A stretch of DNA of 44,945 nucleotides from an uncultured Alphaproteobacteria bacterium (lineage in GTDB: Bacteria; Pseudomonadota; Alphaproteobacteria; Caulobacterales; Caulobacteraceae). Both the position numbers and the translations under genes were made by a program. A model generated the notes under the pieces. That model worked only from the letters and a program-made list of their open reading frames with translations, did not search any database and had not been told where the DNA came from. The stretch is from contig CAITHQ010000201.1 of the NCBI GenBank assembly GCA_903892305.1, forward strand, positions 1-44,945, given 5' to 3'. Position 1 is the stretch's first letter; the number at the start of each line of letters is the position of its first letter. Of this stretch, positions 37,894 through 42,759 are shown piece after piece.

Positions 37894-39687
37894 ATGAAAC
37901 CTCCAATCCTCGCCTTAAAATCCGTCCGCTTGGCTGACGGACCCAAGATGCTGTTCGATGGCGTCGAAATCGGCTTGGAAAGCCGGGTTCGCGCCTGCCT
38001 TGTCGGGCGCAATGGTGCCGGCAAGACCACCCTTCTCCGCGTCCTGGCCGGCGAGATCGAACCCGATGATGGTGAACGGGTTGTCACGCCCGGAACCCGT
38101 GTGGCCTTCGTGCCGCAAGAACCGATCATTGTCGGAGAGACGGTGCTTGATCATGCGACGGCGGGCGGGGCACAGGATTATGAAGCCGAGGCCATGCTTG
38201 ACCTCTTCGCCATACCGCCGTCCCGATCGGCCAAGGGACTGTCGGGCGGTGAAATCCGCCGTGTCGCCCTGGCGCGCGCCCTGGCAGAAGACCCAGACGT
38301 TCTATTGTTGGATGAGCCCACCAATCACCTGGACATCCTGGCTATCGAAACCCTCGAAGCCGAACTTTCCAGATCTAAAGCCGCGATCCTGATTGTCAGC
38401 CACGACCGCGCCTTTCTGGAGCGCGTAACGGGAAGATGCTTTTGGTTGGAGCACCGAAAGGTCCGGGCCCTGGATCGCGACTTTTCCGCCTTTGACGACT
38501 GGGTGGAAAAAATCCTCGCTGGCGAAGCCGAAGAATCTCGTCGGCTGGATAAGCAACTCGAGCGCGAAGAATACTGGCTGCAGCGAGGTGTGACGGGGCG
38601 ACGGGCCCGCAATGAGGGCCGTCGGCGGGCCTTGATGGACCTGCGCAAGGTTCGGGCTGAGCGACTTAAGGATACCCGAGGCGACCTGAATATCGGCCTC
38701 GCCAGTTCTGGTCTGTCAGGCAAGCGGGTGGTGGAGGTCAAGGACCTGGCCAAGAGCTTTGGCGACCGCGTCCTGCTCAAAGGCTTTTCAACCCGCATTC
38801 TGCGCGGCGACCGGGTGGCGATTGTCGGCCCTAATGGTGCGGGTAAGACGACACTTGTGAAATTGCTCTTGGGCGAACTGGCACCAGATTCCGGGTCTGT
38901 TCAATTGGGCGCTAATCTGGACATTGCCTATATCGACCAGTCGCGCATCGCGCTTAGGCCCGACATGATGCTGCGCGACGTCCTGACGCCCCTTGGCGGG
39001 GATCAGGTAATGGTCCGTGGTCAGCCTCGGCACGTGAACGCCTATGCCAAGGACTTCCTGTTCACAGAGTCACAGATTCGGCAGCCGGTGAAGAGTTTGT
39101 CAGGGGGAGAGCGCAACCGCCTTCTCCTGGCCCGCGCCCTGGCGACTCCAGCCAATCTCCTGGTGTTGGACGAGCCCACCAATGATCTAGATATGGACAC
39201 TCTAGACCTGCTGGAAGATGTGCTGGCAGATTATGAGGGAACATTGCTGCTCGTCAGTCACGATCGCGACTTTATCGACCGTCTGGCGACCTCGACCATA
39301 GCCCTCAATGGTCGCGGCGAGGTGGCCGAGACCCCAGGCGGTTGGCAGGACTTTCTCTCACAAAACCCGGACTTCTTTCGGGCCAAGGTGCCACGGTCTG
39401 AGCCAACCCGGACGCCACCGCCGAAAGCCCCACCGCCAAAGGTCGTCAAACTGTCCTACAAGGATCAAAGACGCCTCCAGGAGCTGGAGGCACTTGTGGC
39501 GGATTTACCTGCAAAAATCACAGCGATCGAGGTGCAACTGGCCGCGCCGAACCTCTACAGCGCAAATCCCCACCGCTTTGCAGACCTGACCCGCGACCTT
39601 GAAGCCGCCCAGGCCACACTTGCGGCGGCTGAAGAGGAATGGCTGATCCGCGAAGAGCAGAGAGAGGCCCTAGAAAAAGGGAACTAA
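37894..39687 (+). CDS. uup: ABC-F family ATPase Uup
   Basis: A soluble ATPase with two ABC cassettes and no membrane domain, about 597 residues. Cassette one has GRNGAGKTTLLR (about 40) and LSGGEIRRVALARAL with DEPTNHLD. A linker of charged helices (EEYWLQRGVTGRRARNEGRRRALMDLRKVR) precedes cassette two, with GPNGAGKTTLVK (about 313), LSGGERNRLLLARAL and DEPTNDLD. The C-terminal coiled coil (YKDQRRLQELEALV...) is the DNA-binding extension that marks Uup. ABC-F proteins act on ribosomes, and Uup is also linked to transposon precise excision and to DNA intermediates. The start fits the family (MKPPILALKSVRL), although the ribosome site is weak. A 32-residue frame from 37839 overlaps the start. 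It follows the PBP by 86 bases and may share its transcript. Confidence 0.92.
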   Translation: MKPPILALKSVRLADGPKMLFDGVEIGLESRVRACLVGRNGAGKTTLLRVLAGEIEPDDGERVVTPGTRVAFVPQEPIIVGETVLDHATAGGAQDYEAEAMLDLFAIPPSRSAKGLSGGEIRRVALARALAEDPDVLLLDEPTNHLDILAIETLEAELSRSKAAILIVSHDRAFLERVTGRCFWLEHRKVRALDRDFSAFDDWVEKILAGEAEESRRLDKQLEREEYWLQRGVTGRRARNEGRRRALMDLRKVRAERLKDTRGDLNIGLASSGLSGKRVVEVKDLAKSFGDRVLLKGFSTRILRGDRVAIVGPNGAGKTTLVKLLLGELAPDSGSVQLGANLDIAYIDQSRIALRPDMMLRDVLTPLGGDQVMVRGQPRHVNAYAKDFLFTESQIRQPVKSLSGGERNRLLLARALATPANLLVLDEPTNDLDMDTLDLLEDVLADYEGTLLLVSHDRDFIDRLATSTIALNGRGEVAETPGGWQDFLSQNPDFFRAKVPRSEPTRTPPPKAPPPKVVKLSYKDQRRLQELEALVADLPAKITAIEVQLAAPNLYSANPHRFADLTRDLEAAQATLAAAEEEWLIREEQREALEKGN

Positions 39688-39704
39688 GTGCCAAATCAGG
39701 CACT
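39687..39704 (+). other. Small hairpin at the end of uup
   Basis: AGTGCC and GGCACT pair perfectly over 6 bp around AAATCA, starting on the last base of the uup stop codon. No T-tract follows immediately (TGGAAACG), but an AT-rich stretch starts about 12 bases on. It may mark the transcript end. Confidence 0.3.
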
Positions 39705-39715
39705 GGAAACGTCAC

Positions 39716-39823
39716 GAATTTTCATATCGGTTAATTCTCTAATCATCTGATTTTAAATAATTTATAGGACAATCCACCAGATAGTCACCGGCTTATCCAC
39801 CGTATTTCGACAATCCGTCCACA
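39716..39823. other. AT-rich block next to three phased DnaA-box-like repeats
   Basis: The line 39721-39780 has only 17 G+C of 60. On its right lie CAATCCACC (39770), TTATCCACC (39793) and CCGTCCACA (39815), with shared TCCAC cores spaced 23 and 22 bp, all in one direction. Only TTATCCACC is close to the DnaA consensus TTATNCACA (one mismatch); the others have three. This may be a promoter with a phased regulator array, or DnaA-responsive DNA. It is not at the known alphaproteobacterial origin context (hemE). Confidence 0.35.
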
Positions 39824-39841
39824 TCCCCCTTCTTACGACCT

Positions 39842-40112
39842 GTTGCGGAAAACCCAGATCGGCGTGAACCTTTAATTGTCGAGAGGGAAAACGGCGCGGG
39901 CCAGACGGGAAACCGGAAGGAAAAGCGGGTTGGAGGCTCCCAGAACATAAAGCAAAGGGGTAACCTAGAGCTGGAAACGACTGGAGGCACCTGGAAGTTA
40001 GGAAAGCGCGGGGAAACCAGCGAAGACCTGACCAAGGACCTTATGGCACGGATCCCCCAACGGATCTGAGAGCGGGCGACGACACGGGAAACCGGGGCGT
40101 CGCCCTCTTGCT
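39842..40112 (+). ncRNA. Candidate structured leader or small RNA upstream of the ABC importer
   Basis: This purine-rich stretch has no credible protein frame. It contains several GNRA-type hairpins on the plus strand: ACGG-GAAA-CCGG at 39905-39916 and again at 40084-40095, and CGCGGG-GAAA-CCAGCG at 40007-40022 (five pairs and one mismatch). The 40084 copy is the tip of a strong stem, GGGCGACG/CGTCGCCC (40074-40105), followed by TCTTGCT, which could be a terminator. GGAAAC occurs four times here, plus once at 39705. It ends about 120 bases before the substrate-binding protein gene. CCAGCGAAGACCTGACC (40017-40033) recalls the 3' box of cobalamin riboswitches, but the conserved CCCCGCAACTGT core is missing. 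Boundaries are estimates; the minus strand would not give GNRA loops. Confidence 0.4.
40074..40112 (+). terminator. GAAA-tipped hairpin, possible terminator or attenuator
   Basis: Eight perfect pairs (40074-40081 with 40098-40105), an internal loop ACA/GGG, then a three-pair stem closed by GAAA. A modest T-rich run (TCTTGCTATCT) follows. Its position before an ABC importer allows either the end of a small RNA or transcription attenuation of the transporter. Confidence 0.45.
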
Positions 40113-40231
40113 ATCTGGGATGGCCTTCTTGGGCCTGCGCTCCAATATTTCCGGCGTCAGCCATGTAAAACTGCTTCCCTCCCCCGAGGGTACGGCTCTA
40201 GAGATTCTTCTATTCTCTGAGGGACTCTTAC

Positions 40232-41236
40232 ATGACCTTCTTGCGCGCCATCGCCATCGTCGCACTCATGGGCCTGATCAGCGCCTGTTCTCCCGCGAAA
40301 AAGGCGGATGCCCCCGCCGCGCAGACCCAAATCCGCTTTGCAACCGACTGGCGGGCCCAGGCTGAACAGGGTGGCTTTTACCAGGCGGTCGCTACTGGCG
40401 AATACGTCAAGCGCGGCCTCGATGTCCGGATTGTCCAAGGGGGCCCTGGGGTTAATGTCCCCCAACTCCTGGCAGCGGGTGCCGTCGAAGCGGGCATGGG
40501 ATCTAACAGCTTTATCGCCCTTAACATGGCAAATGAAGGCGTCCCGGTCCGGGCTGTCGCGGCCATGATGCAAAAGGACCCGCAGGTTCTCATTGCTCAC
40601 CCCGACCAGGGCATTGAGAAGATCGAAGACCTGAAGGGCCATCCCATCCTCCTGTCGGACGCCTCAGTCAGCGCCTTCTGGGTCTGGCTGAAATCTAAGT
40701 ACGGATTCACCGACAGCCAGGTGCGCAAATACACCTTCAACTCCGCCCCCTTCCTGGCCGACAAGTCCGTGGCTCAGCAGGGTTATGTGACCAGCGAGCC
40801 CTATACGATTGAGAAGGAGGCCAAGCTTACGCCAAAGGTCTTCTTGCTCGCCGACAATGGCTATCCCAGCTATGCGACCATGATCCTCGTTCCCCAGACG
40901 CAGATCGACAAGAACCCTGCCGCTGTTAAGGCCTTTATTGAGGCCTCCGCAGCGGGTTGGAAATCCTATCTCTACGGTGATGCTAAGCCTGGCGATGCGC
41001 TGATTTTGAAAGATAATCCAGAAATGACCCAGGATGTCCTGGATCAGGCCCGGGACAAGATGCGCAGCTACGGCATTGTTGATGGCGGCGACGCAAAGAC
41101 TGGCGGCGTCGGCGTGATGACCGACGCCCGCTGGGCGGCATTCGCCAAAATGGCGGTGGAGGAAGGGGTCTATCCCAAGACCCTGGACGTCTCCAAGGCC
41201 TATACCCTTCAGTTCGTCGCGCCGTCGGCAAAGTAG
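40232..41236 (+). CDS. ABC importer substrate-binding lipoprotein, NMT1/ThiY-like
   Basis: 334 residues, with a lipoprotein signal peptide (lipobox LISAC, Cys about 20). The body is of the NMT1 family (thiamine-precursor, sulfonate and nitrate binders): IRFATDWRAQAEQGGFYQAVATGEYVKRGLDVRI, GGPGVNVPQLLAAGAVEAGMGSN, EDLKGHPILLSDASVSAFWVWLKSKYGF. The DW...GGFYQA opening is closest to hydroxymethylpyrimidine binders of the ThiY/THI5 type, which is a recollection of the family, not a test. ATG at 40232 follows GAGGGA. It heads a three-gene importer operon with ATPase and permease. Upstream is a long structured region, but no recognisable TPP riboswitch. Substrate therefore open. Confidence 0.88.
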   Translation: MTFLRAIAIVALMGLISACSPAKKADAPAAQTQIRFATDWRAQAEQGGFYQAVATGEYVKRGLDVRIVQGGPGVNVPQLLAAGAVEAGMGSNSFIALNMANEGVPVRAVAAMMQKDPQVLIAHPDQGIEKIEDLKGHPILLSDASVSAFWVWLKSKYGFTDSQVRKYTFNSAPFLADKSVAQQGYVTSEPYTIEKEAKLTPKVFLLADNGYPSYATMILVPQTQIDKNPAAVKAFIEASAAGWKSYLYGDAKPGDALILKDNPEMTQDVLDQARDKMRSYGIVDGGDAKTGGVGVMTDARWAAFAKMAVEEGVYPKTLDVSKAYTLQFVAPSAK

Positions 41237-41245
41237 GCGAAAGGC

Positions 41246-41995
41246 ATGGCTTCCATTGTCGCCCTGGAACAGGTCGAGGTCGATTATCCTGGTCGCGGGC
41301 GCGCCTTGGGACCATTCAGCTTTTCCGTTGCCCCTGGCGAAATCGTCGCCCTGGTAGGGCCATCAGGCAGTGGCAAGTCAACCGCTTTGCGGCTGTTGGC
41401 AGGACTGGAGGACCCGACCCGCGGCGACCTGGAGCGTAATCTCGGGCGCGGAGAAACCAGCGTTGTCTTCCAGGCGCCGACCTTGGCCCCCTGGCTCAGC
41501 GCCCAAGCCAATGTCGCCTTGCCCCTTGAACTCTCTGGCATACCCAAGGCTGAGGCCCTGGCCCAGGCTGGTGCAGCCCTGGACCGGGTCGGCCTATCCA
41601 GCGCTTGGGCCGCGCGTCCGGCGCAATTGTCTGGGGGCATGGCCATGCGAGTGTCCCTGGCCCGGGCCTTGGCCACTGGCCCAAAACTCTTGCTCCTGGA
41701 TGAGCCCTTCGCCGCCTTGGACGAAATCACACGCCGCACCCTTGCTGACGACGTCCTGGCCCTCTGGTCGCAGTCCCGTCCTGCGATCGTCTTTGTCACC
41801 CACAGTGTTGAAGAAGCGGCCTATATGGCGGCCCGGGTGGTGGTCCTGACCAAGGGGCCAGGGCGAGTCGCCGGGGAAATCGCAATCCCAGGAGACCTGC
41901 CGCGGCCCAGGGCCTTTAGGGCGACTCCAGGTTTCAGACAGGCTGCTGAAGACATATCGGCCTGTTTGGCCCAGGGCGCGGAGGCGGTGTCTTGA
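41246..41995 (+). CDS. ABC importer ATP-binding protein (NitT/TauT/ThiZ type)
   Basis: 249 residues: Walker A GPSGSGKSTALRLLAG (near 38), Q-loop VVFQAPTLAPWLSAQANVALPLEL, signature LSGGMAMRVSLARALA, Walker B LLLLDEPFAALDE and switch His in VFVTHSVEEAAYMA. This is the cytoplasmic motor of the importer. It begins nine bases after the binding-protein stop with GGCGAAAGGC before the ATG. The permease's TTG start overlaps its TGA stop. Confidence 0.93.
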   Translation: MASIVALEQVEVDYPGRGRALGPFSFSVAPGEIVALVGPSGSGKSTALRLLAGLEDPTRGDLERNLGRGETSVVFQAPTLAPWLSAQANVALPLELSGIPKAEALAQAGAALDRVGLSSAWAARPAQLSGGMAMRVSLARALATGPKLLLLDEPFAALDEITRRTLADDVLALWSQSRPAIVFVTHSVEEAAYMAARVVVLTKGPGRVAGEIAIPGDLPRPRAFRATPGFRQAAEDISACLAQGAEAVS

Positions 41996-42759
41996 GACAG
42001 GTCCTCAACACCCTGGCCCCCCTCATCCTGCTTGGTTTTCTGCTCGCGATCTGGGAGGTCACCTGCCGCACGCTGAATGTGCCGGCCTATTTCCTGCCCC
42101 CGCCCTCGGAAGTAGCCCTTGCCGTGGCGCAAGACGCCCCCAGTCTCATCGCTGCGGCCTGGAACACTTTGTCGGTTGCCCTGCTGGCTCTGCTCCTGGC
42201 AAGTCTGTGCGCCCAAGCGGTCGCCATCGTCATTGCCCTCAGCCCACTGCTAGAACGCGCCGTCCGGCCTCTGGCTTCGGTTCTACAAGTCACCCCAGTG
42301 GTCGCTATTGCCCCCCTGGTGCTGATCTGGGCGGGGATTGACCACCCGGAAAGGGCGGTTATTGCGCTCGCCGTCCTTGTGGCGTTTTTCCCGATTTTCT
42401 CCGGGGCCGTCACAGGGCTGCATGCCGCCGATCCTGACCTTGAAAGACTGTTTGATCTCTACCAGGCCAGTCGGATCCAGCGGGTCCTGAGACTGCAGCT
42501 TCCTTCGGCCGTTCCCTTCCTGCTGGAGGGCCACAAGGTGGGTGCAGGTCTGGCCATCATCGGGGCGGTAGTTGCCGAATTCGCAGCTGGATCTGGCGGC
42601 ATTCGCGGACTGGCCTGGCGTATTCTGGACGCCGGCAACAAGCTACAAACGGCTCGCATGCTGGCCGCTCTGGTGGTGCTGGGCGTGATGGGTGTGGTGC
42701 TTCACGCTGTGTTAAATCGTATTGAACAGTTCGGGCTTAGATGGTGGCGTGGCCGTTAG
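41992..42759 (+). CDS. ABC importer permease, TTG start
   Basis: 255 residues with about six membrane segments and the BPD_transp_1 EAA-like loop (YQASRIQRVLRLQLPSAVPFLLEGHKVGAGLAIIGAVVAEF), typical of NitT/TauT/thiamine-precursor permeases; AYFLPPPSEVALAV near residue 35 is a family hallmark. Initiation is at TTG (41992), overlapping the ATPase stop as TTGA, with GGAGGCGG eight to twelve bases upstream. That arrangement points to translational coupling. No downstream terminator is evident in the 36 bases before the next gene. Confidence 0.92.
   Translation: MRQVLNTLAPLILLGFLLAIWEVTCRTLNVPAYFLPPPSEVALAVAQDAPSLIAAAWNTLSVALLALLLASLCAQAVAIVIALSPLLERAVRPLASVLQVTPVVAIAPLVLIWAGIDHPERAVIALAVLVAFFPIFSGAVTGLHAADPDLERLFDLYQASRIQRVLRLQLPSAVPFLLEGHKVGAGLAIIGAVVAEFAAGSGGIRGLAWRILDAGNKLQTARMLAALVVLGVMGVVLHAVLNRIEQFGLRWWRGR

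Follow-up and report, generated by a model that had tools for sequence, protein, structure and literature searches.

A conserved structured RNA of Caulobacteraceae, probably a stand-alone small RNA and probably not the leader of the ABC importer beside it

We analysed a stretch of 44,945 bases (the window) from the genome of an uncultured member of the Caulobacteraceae, the genus of which we took to be Phenylobacterium. The window contains a gene-free gap of 544 bases (39688-40231) ahead of a three-gene ABC importer, as the initial annotation had it, and the coordinates check out. The gap is flanked at its 5' end by a gene for an ABC-F ATPase. The nearest NCBIfam model to this gene is Uup, with 540.9 bits, which is below the cut-off of 900, and we use the name uup only as shorthand for the ABC-F gene. 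The three importer genes (40232-42759) encode an NMT1/THI5-like lipoprotein, an ATPase and a permease. We saw an importer of this type adjoining an ABC-F gene repeatedly in Caulobacteraceae, and also at a locus from Parvibaculum (L207).

The features of the region are listed below. R1 is a covariance model with 245 positions that was built from 35 copies of the RNA, and A1 consists of these 35 training copies, taken from 38 that were collected; the three omitted were L024 (a deletion copy), L032 (aberrant in its 5' part) and L050 (cut by a contig end).

37852-39687, + strand: ABC-F ATPase gene, the 5' flank of the gap.
39843-39871, + strand: promoter-like block of the RNA, TTGCGG at 39843-39848 (first T at -35), a 17-nt spacer and GAACCT at 39866-39871; conserved in position.
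39878-40114, + strand: structured small RNA with predicted ends, one copy of a family; 155.2 bits with R1 (E 1.3e-33, model positions 1-245 of 245), this copy being among the 35 used to build R1.
39878-39886, + strand: closing helix P1, 5' side (39878-39880 and 39884-39886); its pairs are formed in 94-96% of A1.
39889-39932, + strand: arm P2/P3, with a GNRA hairpin at 39906-39915 (loop GAAA, 39909-39912); helix 92.1% paired.
39935-39990, + strand: arm P4, with a tip hairpin at 39957-39966 (loop GUAA, 39960-39963); compensatory change.
39991-40037, + strand: arm P5, with a tip hairpin at 40007-40022 (loop GAAA, 40013-40016); compensatory change at pair 40010-40019 (E 0.017).
40039-40047, + strand: closing helix P1, 3' side (40039-40041 and 40045-40047); pairing in A1 and compensatory events.
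40049-40068, + strand: hairpin P6, stem 40049-40055/40062-40068, loop CCCAAC at 40056-40061; its pairs are formed in 99.2% of A1 and 99.3% of A4.
40071-40114, + strand: terminator-like hairpin with a GNRA tip at 40085-40094 and the tail CTTGCTAT; compensatory change.
40174-40200, + strand: putative promoter-like block of the importer gene, CTTCC followed by GCTCTA at 40195-40200; recurs upstream of the gene.
40232-41236, + strand: gene for the NMT1/THI5-like substrate-binding lipoprotein of the importer (Pfam PF09084, E 8.6e-28), a neighbour that lies outside the RNA.

The short motifs that had first been noticed in the gap are all where they were reported. The 12-base direct repeat ACGGGAAACCGG is at 39905 and 40084, the five occurrences of GGAAAC are at 39705, 39908, 39973, 40012 and 40087, and, by reading, an 8-bp stem is formed by 40074-40081 and 40098-40105. 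The motif GGGNRACC, at 39907, 39958, 40011 and 40086, makes up four hairpin tips. It occurs 3.40 times per copy in the 35 copies, compared with 0.21 in dinucleotide shuffles. The whole window has 13 occurrences on the plus strand and 8 on the minus strand, and 4 of the 13 are within the 237 bases of the RNA.

We found that the RNA is conserved in relatives, as the initial annotation had anticipated. A BLASTN search with the gap gave matches in 27 of 60 genomes, including its own. The other 26 were all among the 35 genomes from its own genus; the 24 genomes from other families of the order gave no match. With R1, 98 of 101 genomes of the genus had a match at E <= 0.001 and three had none; the lengths in the family are 231-271 nt. 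There were one to six matches per genome, some of them short or on the reverse strand, arising from the palindromic terminator. A search for plasmid-borne relatives gave no plasmid match. Eleven further copies from the genus, L119-L127 and the weak L117 and L118, were inspected and are outside all counts.

Beyond the genus the matches become fewer and weaker. In a sample of the family, R1 matched 61 of 199 genomes, 38 from the same genus and 23 from others. Nine genomes of genus g32 (presumably Caulobacter) had a match over the whole model, with E from 7e-26 to 1.1e-8, and the other 14 matches were shorter or weaker. R1 matched 18 of 200 genomes in a sample of the order and 4 of 289 in a sample of the class; the only matches from outside the family were in G036 and G422 and were short (38 and 72 bases). 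A search with a g32 copy as a DNA query matched 22 of 199 family genomes, at full length in only three, all of them g32; so few full-length matches indicate that the g32 form has diverged.

Among 80 importer loci, R1 matched 23 at E <= 3.9e-20 and one at 1.5e-7, with weak matches or none in the rest. A larger homologue, of 371-378 nt, is present upstream of the same importer gene in 21 of the 80 loci (17 from Brevundimonas, four labelled only as Caulobacterales or Caulobacteraceae bacterium). This larger form has the same promoter block, the 5' box GCCGAGGGACACGGCGGCGCGG or near variants of it, and a P6-like hairpin and terminator at its 3' end, and at some loci over 1 kb separates it from the importer gene. 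One of these larger copies, used as a DNA query, matched 42 of 199 family genomes. Thirty-six of these belong to genus g13 (presumably Brevundimonas), 28 of them with full-length matches.

Several individual loci differ from this general picture. In the Brevundimonas form, for example L165:3469-3843 (+) and 20 similar loci, the RNA is ~375 nt long with a mean column identity of 79% (19 copies), and by eye several arms have UUCG-like tips where Phenylobacterium has GNRA. One close relative has a 132-nt copy (L024:4026-4157, minus strand) that retains P6 and the terminator-like hairpin and is missing ~105 bases from its interior, which by eye correspond to arms P4 and P5. At L147, L152 and L154 only 119-229 bases separate the matches to uup and the importer, and R1 has no match there, so that a locus can lack the RNA gene as a whole.

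In the consensus fold, P1 encloses the three arms P2/P3, P4 and P5, and is followed by P6 and then by the terminator-like hairpin. In A1, 89.1% of the cells are paired, compared with 81.9% in shuffled and 31-47% in slid controls, and both partners vary in 35 of 67 pairs (20.2 in shuffles). In 80 further copies, which were a selection from the R1 match list, 91.3% of the cells are paired and 45 of 67 pairs change on both sides (29.3 in shuffles), in an alignment that was fitted to the model. All eight pairs of the P5 outer stem vary on both sides in A1, but only 73.5% of the cells there pair.

Two measures of covariation gave different answers. By a G-test with APC correction, against a phylogenetic null in which column changes were re-dealt over the tree (60 null alignments), no pair was significant. 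A test that counts compensatory changes on the branches of the tree, devised after that result and the more favourable of the two, was applied to a structure-free alignment of 115 copies (~29,000 column pairs). Its best twelve column pairs were all inside predicted helices (P1, P2, P4 and its tip, P5 and its tip, and the terminator); eleven were in the A1 register and one, 39998-40029, was one base off. At a corrected E < 0.05 there were six pairs in four helices (P4 tip, P4 middle, P5 tip and terminator). The P4 pairs are 39959-39964 (E 1.9e-6), 39952-39971 (E 3.1e-4), 39957-39966 (E 0.021) and, above the threshold, 39937-39987 (E 0.14), and those of the terminator-like hairpin are 40084-40095 (E 4.4e-6) and 40074-40105 (E 8.1e-5). 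Pair 39890-39931 of P2/P3 had four compensatory events (E 0.096) and pair 39879-40046 of P1 had three (E 0.36). The covariation expected of a structured RNA was therefore found by event counting, with six significant pairs, and not by the G-test, with none.

The fold of the single sequence is only modest evidence and is not decisive. It had a z of -1.74, with 11 of 200 shuffles as good; the whole gap had a z of -0.81 (18 of 100), and the minus strand folded no better than its shuffles (z -0.33). The real evidence for a structured RNA is conservation together with compensatory change, and on that evidence the proposal that the gap holds a plus-strand structured RNA is correct.

The RNA is preceded by a promoter-like block of its own. 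In 138 of 144 copies TTGC is at exactly -35 relative to the start of the RNA, which is also the start of P1: 66 of 69 at the importer site, 42 of 45 elsewhere in the genus (a 46th copy has no sequence there), all nine from g32 and all 21 of the Brevundimonas type. A scan for consensus sigma-70 promoters called no site at 39843-39871, and a generic terminator scan did not call the 3' hairpin, the tail of which is U-poor. Both the promoter-like block and the terminator-like hairpin are strongly conserved.

The terminator-like hairpin is 117 bases ahead of the ATG of the importer gene, and between them the importer appears to have a separate promoter-like block. In many copies, by eye and unscored, CTTCC or TTGGAA followed by GCNCTA-like letters is found upstream of the importer gene. 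In 16 of the 69 importer-site copies from the genus, and in three copies from g32, a gene for a MASE1 hybrid histidine kinase separates the RNA from the importer, and where it intervenes the block stays with the importer gene (L034, L025). One such kinase gene is L034:5220-7367 (+); others are at L025 and L114-L116. On present evidence the RNA is probably not the leader or riboswitch of the importer. Of the span originally marked out as a leader, 39842-40231, the part that stands is 39843 to ~40114, which comprises the RNA and the promoter-like block ahead of it, and 40115-40231 is the importer gene's own upstream region.

The RNA gene is also found at a second site. Among 115 copies from the genus, 69 are at the importer site, 40 are beside rnd and/or ppx, and six are unassigned. 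We take these neighbours to be rnd (RNase D), ppx and ppk by recognition from their sequences, without a family search. Of the 46 copies away from the importer, 39 have an antisense gene as their nearest called neighbour downstream and six a sense gene, with no data for one. The pattern of a riboswitch, with every copy sense-upstream of a gene, is thus broken in 39 of the 45 non-importer copies with data. On a tree of the copies, the label importer-site versus rest changes twice, compared with a mean of 36.5 when labels were shuffled, indicating two old paralogous lineages that are vertically inherited, one next to uup and the importer and the other between rnd and ppx; the mean identity between them is 63%. 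By a hand count from the R1 list, 44 of 101 genomes of the genus have two places above 100 bits. The window's own genome has a single R1 match, the importer-site copy. Its rnd is at the ends of two contigs and has an unrelated open frame 51 bases downstream.

We compared the RNA with known systems. At the Rfam gathering score the whole window had no match to the cobalamin (RF00174) or TPP (RF00059) riboswitch, and neither matched at E up to 10 in 39500-40400, where the only match listed was a chance one to SNORD28 (E 3.8, minus strand, 39689-39751), outside the RNA and far below the cut-off. At the homologue loci L165, L109, L116 and L039, a search at E up to 1 gave only one sub-threshold match, to whalefall-1, away from the RNA. 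A TPP riboswitch was rejected on the lack of an RF00059 match in 39500-40400, and the other Rfam families on the lack of any match above the cut-off. The RNA resembles 6S RNA in being a stand-alone structured RNA, and 6S RNA paralogues exist elsewhere, but RF00013 did not match it and the genome has its own 6S gene at another place (G000:C157). The window copy has many GGA triplets (14), like the protein-sequestering RNAs CsrB and RsmZ. The number per copy is near the level in shuffles (11.57 compared with 10.35), and CsrA was found in none of 40 genomes, including the window's own, by a search that matched 3 of 14 named genomes as a control. A small protein was also rejected. The lengths of 231-271 give all three remainders modulo 3; the longest closed open reading frame has a median of 18 codons (maximum 60, eight in the window copy). 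Against this, between 36 and 53 of the 115 copies lack a stop codon in any given frame, which is frequent in GC-rich sequence.

Three small RNAs of Alphaproteobacteria are the closest points of comparison. The gene for CcnA is at the replication origin, unlike the RNA here, which is beside uup and the importer or beside rnd and ppx; the comparison is by description. In Caulobacter crescentus, a CCCC loop of CcnA pairs with GGGG near the start codons of ctrA and gcrA (PMC8959179). GsrN of C. crescentus is described as ~100 nt long, limited to Caulobacteraceae and usually adjoining general stress response genes, with a C-rich loop that is its best conserved part and pairs with the G-rich katG leader (PMC5869019). 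The RNA here differs from that description in its 231-271 nt and its multiple arms. The alphaR8/SisA-D RNAs have several paralogues, intrinsic terminators and a core UUUCCUCCCU, with sisA beside an FGase gene (PMC12559287). In that description they resemble the RNA here as alphaproteobacterial small RNAs with paralogues; by reading, the core UUUCCUCCCU is absent from the window copy. We found no description of an RNA at 39878-40114 in open-licence papers, and no Rfam family matches it. The RNA family is undescribed so far as we searched, and the suggestion of an undescribed structured RNA holds.

How the RNA functions can be considered in light of these results. The initial annotation offered three possibilities: a diverged cobalamin-type element, a new riboswitch class for the ligand of the importer, or an independent small RNA ending at the hairpin at 40105. 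The resemblance of strings like GGAAACCUGC to the letters of the B12 box speaks for the cobalamin-type element, which is nevertheless extremely improbable, since RF00174 gave no match in 39500-40400 even with E allowed to reach 10. A new class of riboswitch or attenuator, in which P1-P5 would bind the ligand of the importer and the 3' hairpin would terminate or read through, would account for the order of RNA and then importer that is shared by Phenylobacterium, g32 and Brevundimonas-type loci, for a terminator-like hairpin so close to the ATG, and for the aptamer-like look of a multi-arm fold. It is hard to reconcile with the separate promoter-like block of the importer gene past the hairpin, the intervening kinase gene, the antisense neighbours of most other copies, and the three loci where uup and the importer are close together and R1 finds nothing. 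We regard it as improbable, and the claim of a ligand-sensing leader is unsupported on these same grounds. An independent small RNA, with a promoter-like block of its own, fits best of the three.

With conservation, fold, paralogy and position established, we consider it probable that this is a stand-alone, trans-acting structured small RNA of the Caulobacteraceae. It is also possible that the RNA pairs with no mRNA and is structural or protein-binding, either the core of a ribonucleoprotein or a 6S-like sequestering RNA, with the GGGNRACC tips or the junction as the binding site. A large stable fold, four identical tip motifs so far above their frequency in shuffles, and the U-poor terminator tail are consistent with this. 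In the Brevundimonas form, several arms have UUCG-like tips by eye and GGGNRACC falls to 1.21 per copy (0.40 in shuffles), indicating that the RNA can do without GGGNRACC. In addition, 6S RNA has a gene of its own, and CsrA was found in none of the 40 genomes searched. We think this explanation rather unlikely. Less likely again is that the RNA is a family-specific RNA machine of the Caulobacteraceae, with a ribozyme- or aptamer-like three-arm core that would serve as the core of a ribonucleoprotein or as a ligand sensor in trans.

For a trans-acting small RNA, the loop of P6 is the candidate site of pairing. Within 75 nt of the 3' end, CCCAAC is present in 93 of the 115 copies from the genus (59 of 69 at the importer site and 34 of 46 elsewhere), although the two lineages share only 63% identity on average. 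The genus copies thus have the conserved exposed C-rich loop that marks C-rich-loop small RNAs. The loop differs in the g32 and Brevundimonas copies inspected, which have no CCCAAC. CCCAAC is complementary to G-rich ribosome-binding sites. The predicted duplex of the P6 loop with the importer leader had a mean energy of -10.9, compared with -7.0 when leaders were taken from other genes (76 leaders) and -7.3 when the letters of the leaders were shuffled; the P value overstates the difference because the copies are related. This set contained the 52 of 78 importer-site copies that had a start codon found and a C-type loop, with CUCCC-loop copies excluded. In the window copy the energy is only -7.4, and pairing would be weak in its own species. 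In one clade with a CUCCC loop, we looked for matching changes in the importer leader; the effect was small (-10.3 compared with -9.2, seven leaders), and we did not accept it as compensation.

Based on these results, we propose that a small RNA gene occupies 39878 to ~40114 and stands alone, with a promoter to itself and an end that resembles an intrinsic terminator. The transcript would fold into P1, three arms with GNRA loops, P6 and the terminator-like hairpin, and would act in trans. The C-rich loop of P6 may pair with G-rich ribosome-binding sites, for example that of the neighbouring importer mRNA, and the remainder of the fold may give stability or bind a protein. Pairing of the P6 loop with G-rich leaders, in the manner of GsrN and CcnA, seems to us the most likely mechanism, and we put it forward tentatively.

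The results warn against annotating this RNA as an importer riboswitch. A folded RNA that is nearly genus-wide, has two old lineages and has relatives in other genera points to a core function that is unnamed in the libraries used.
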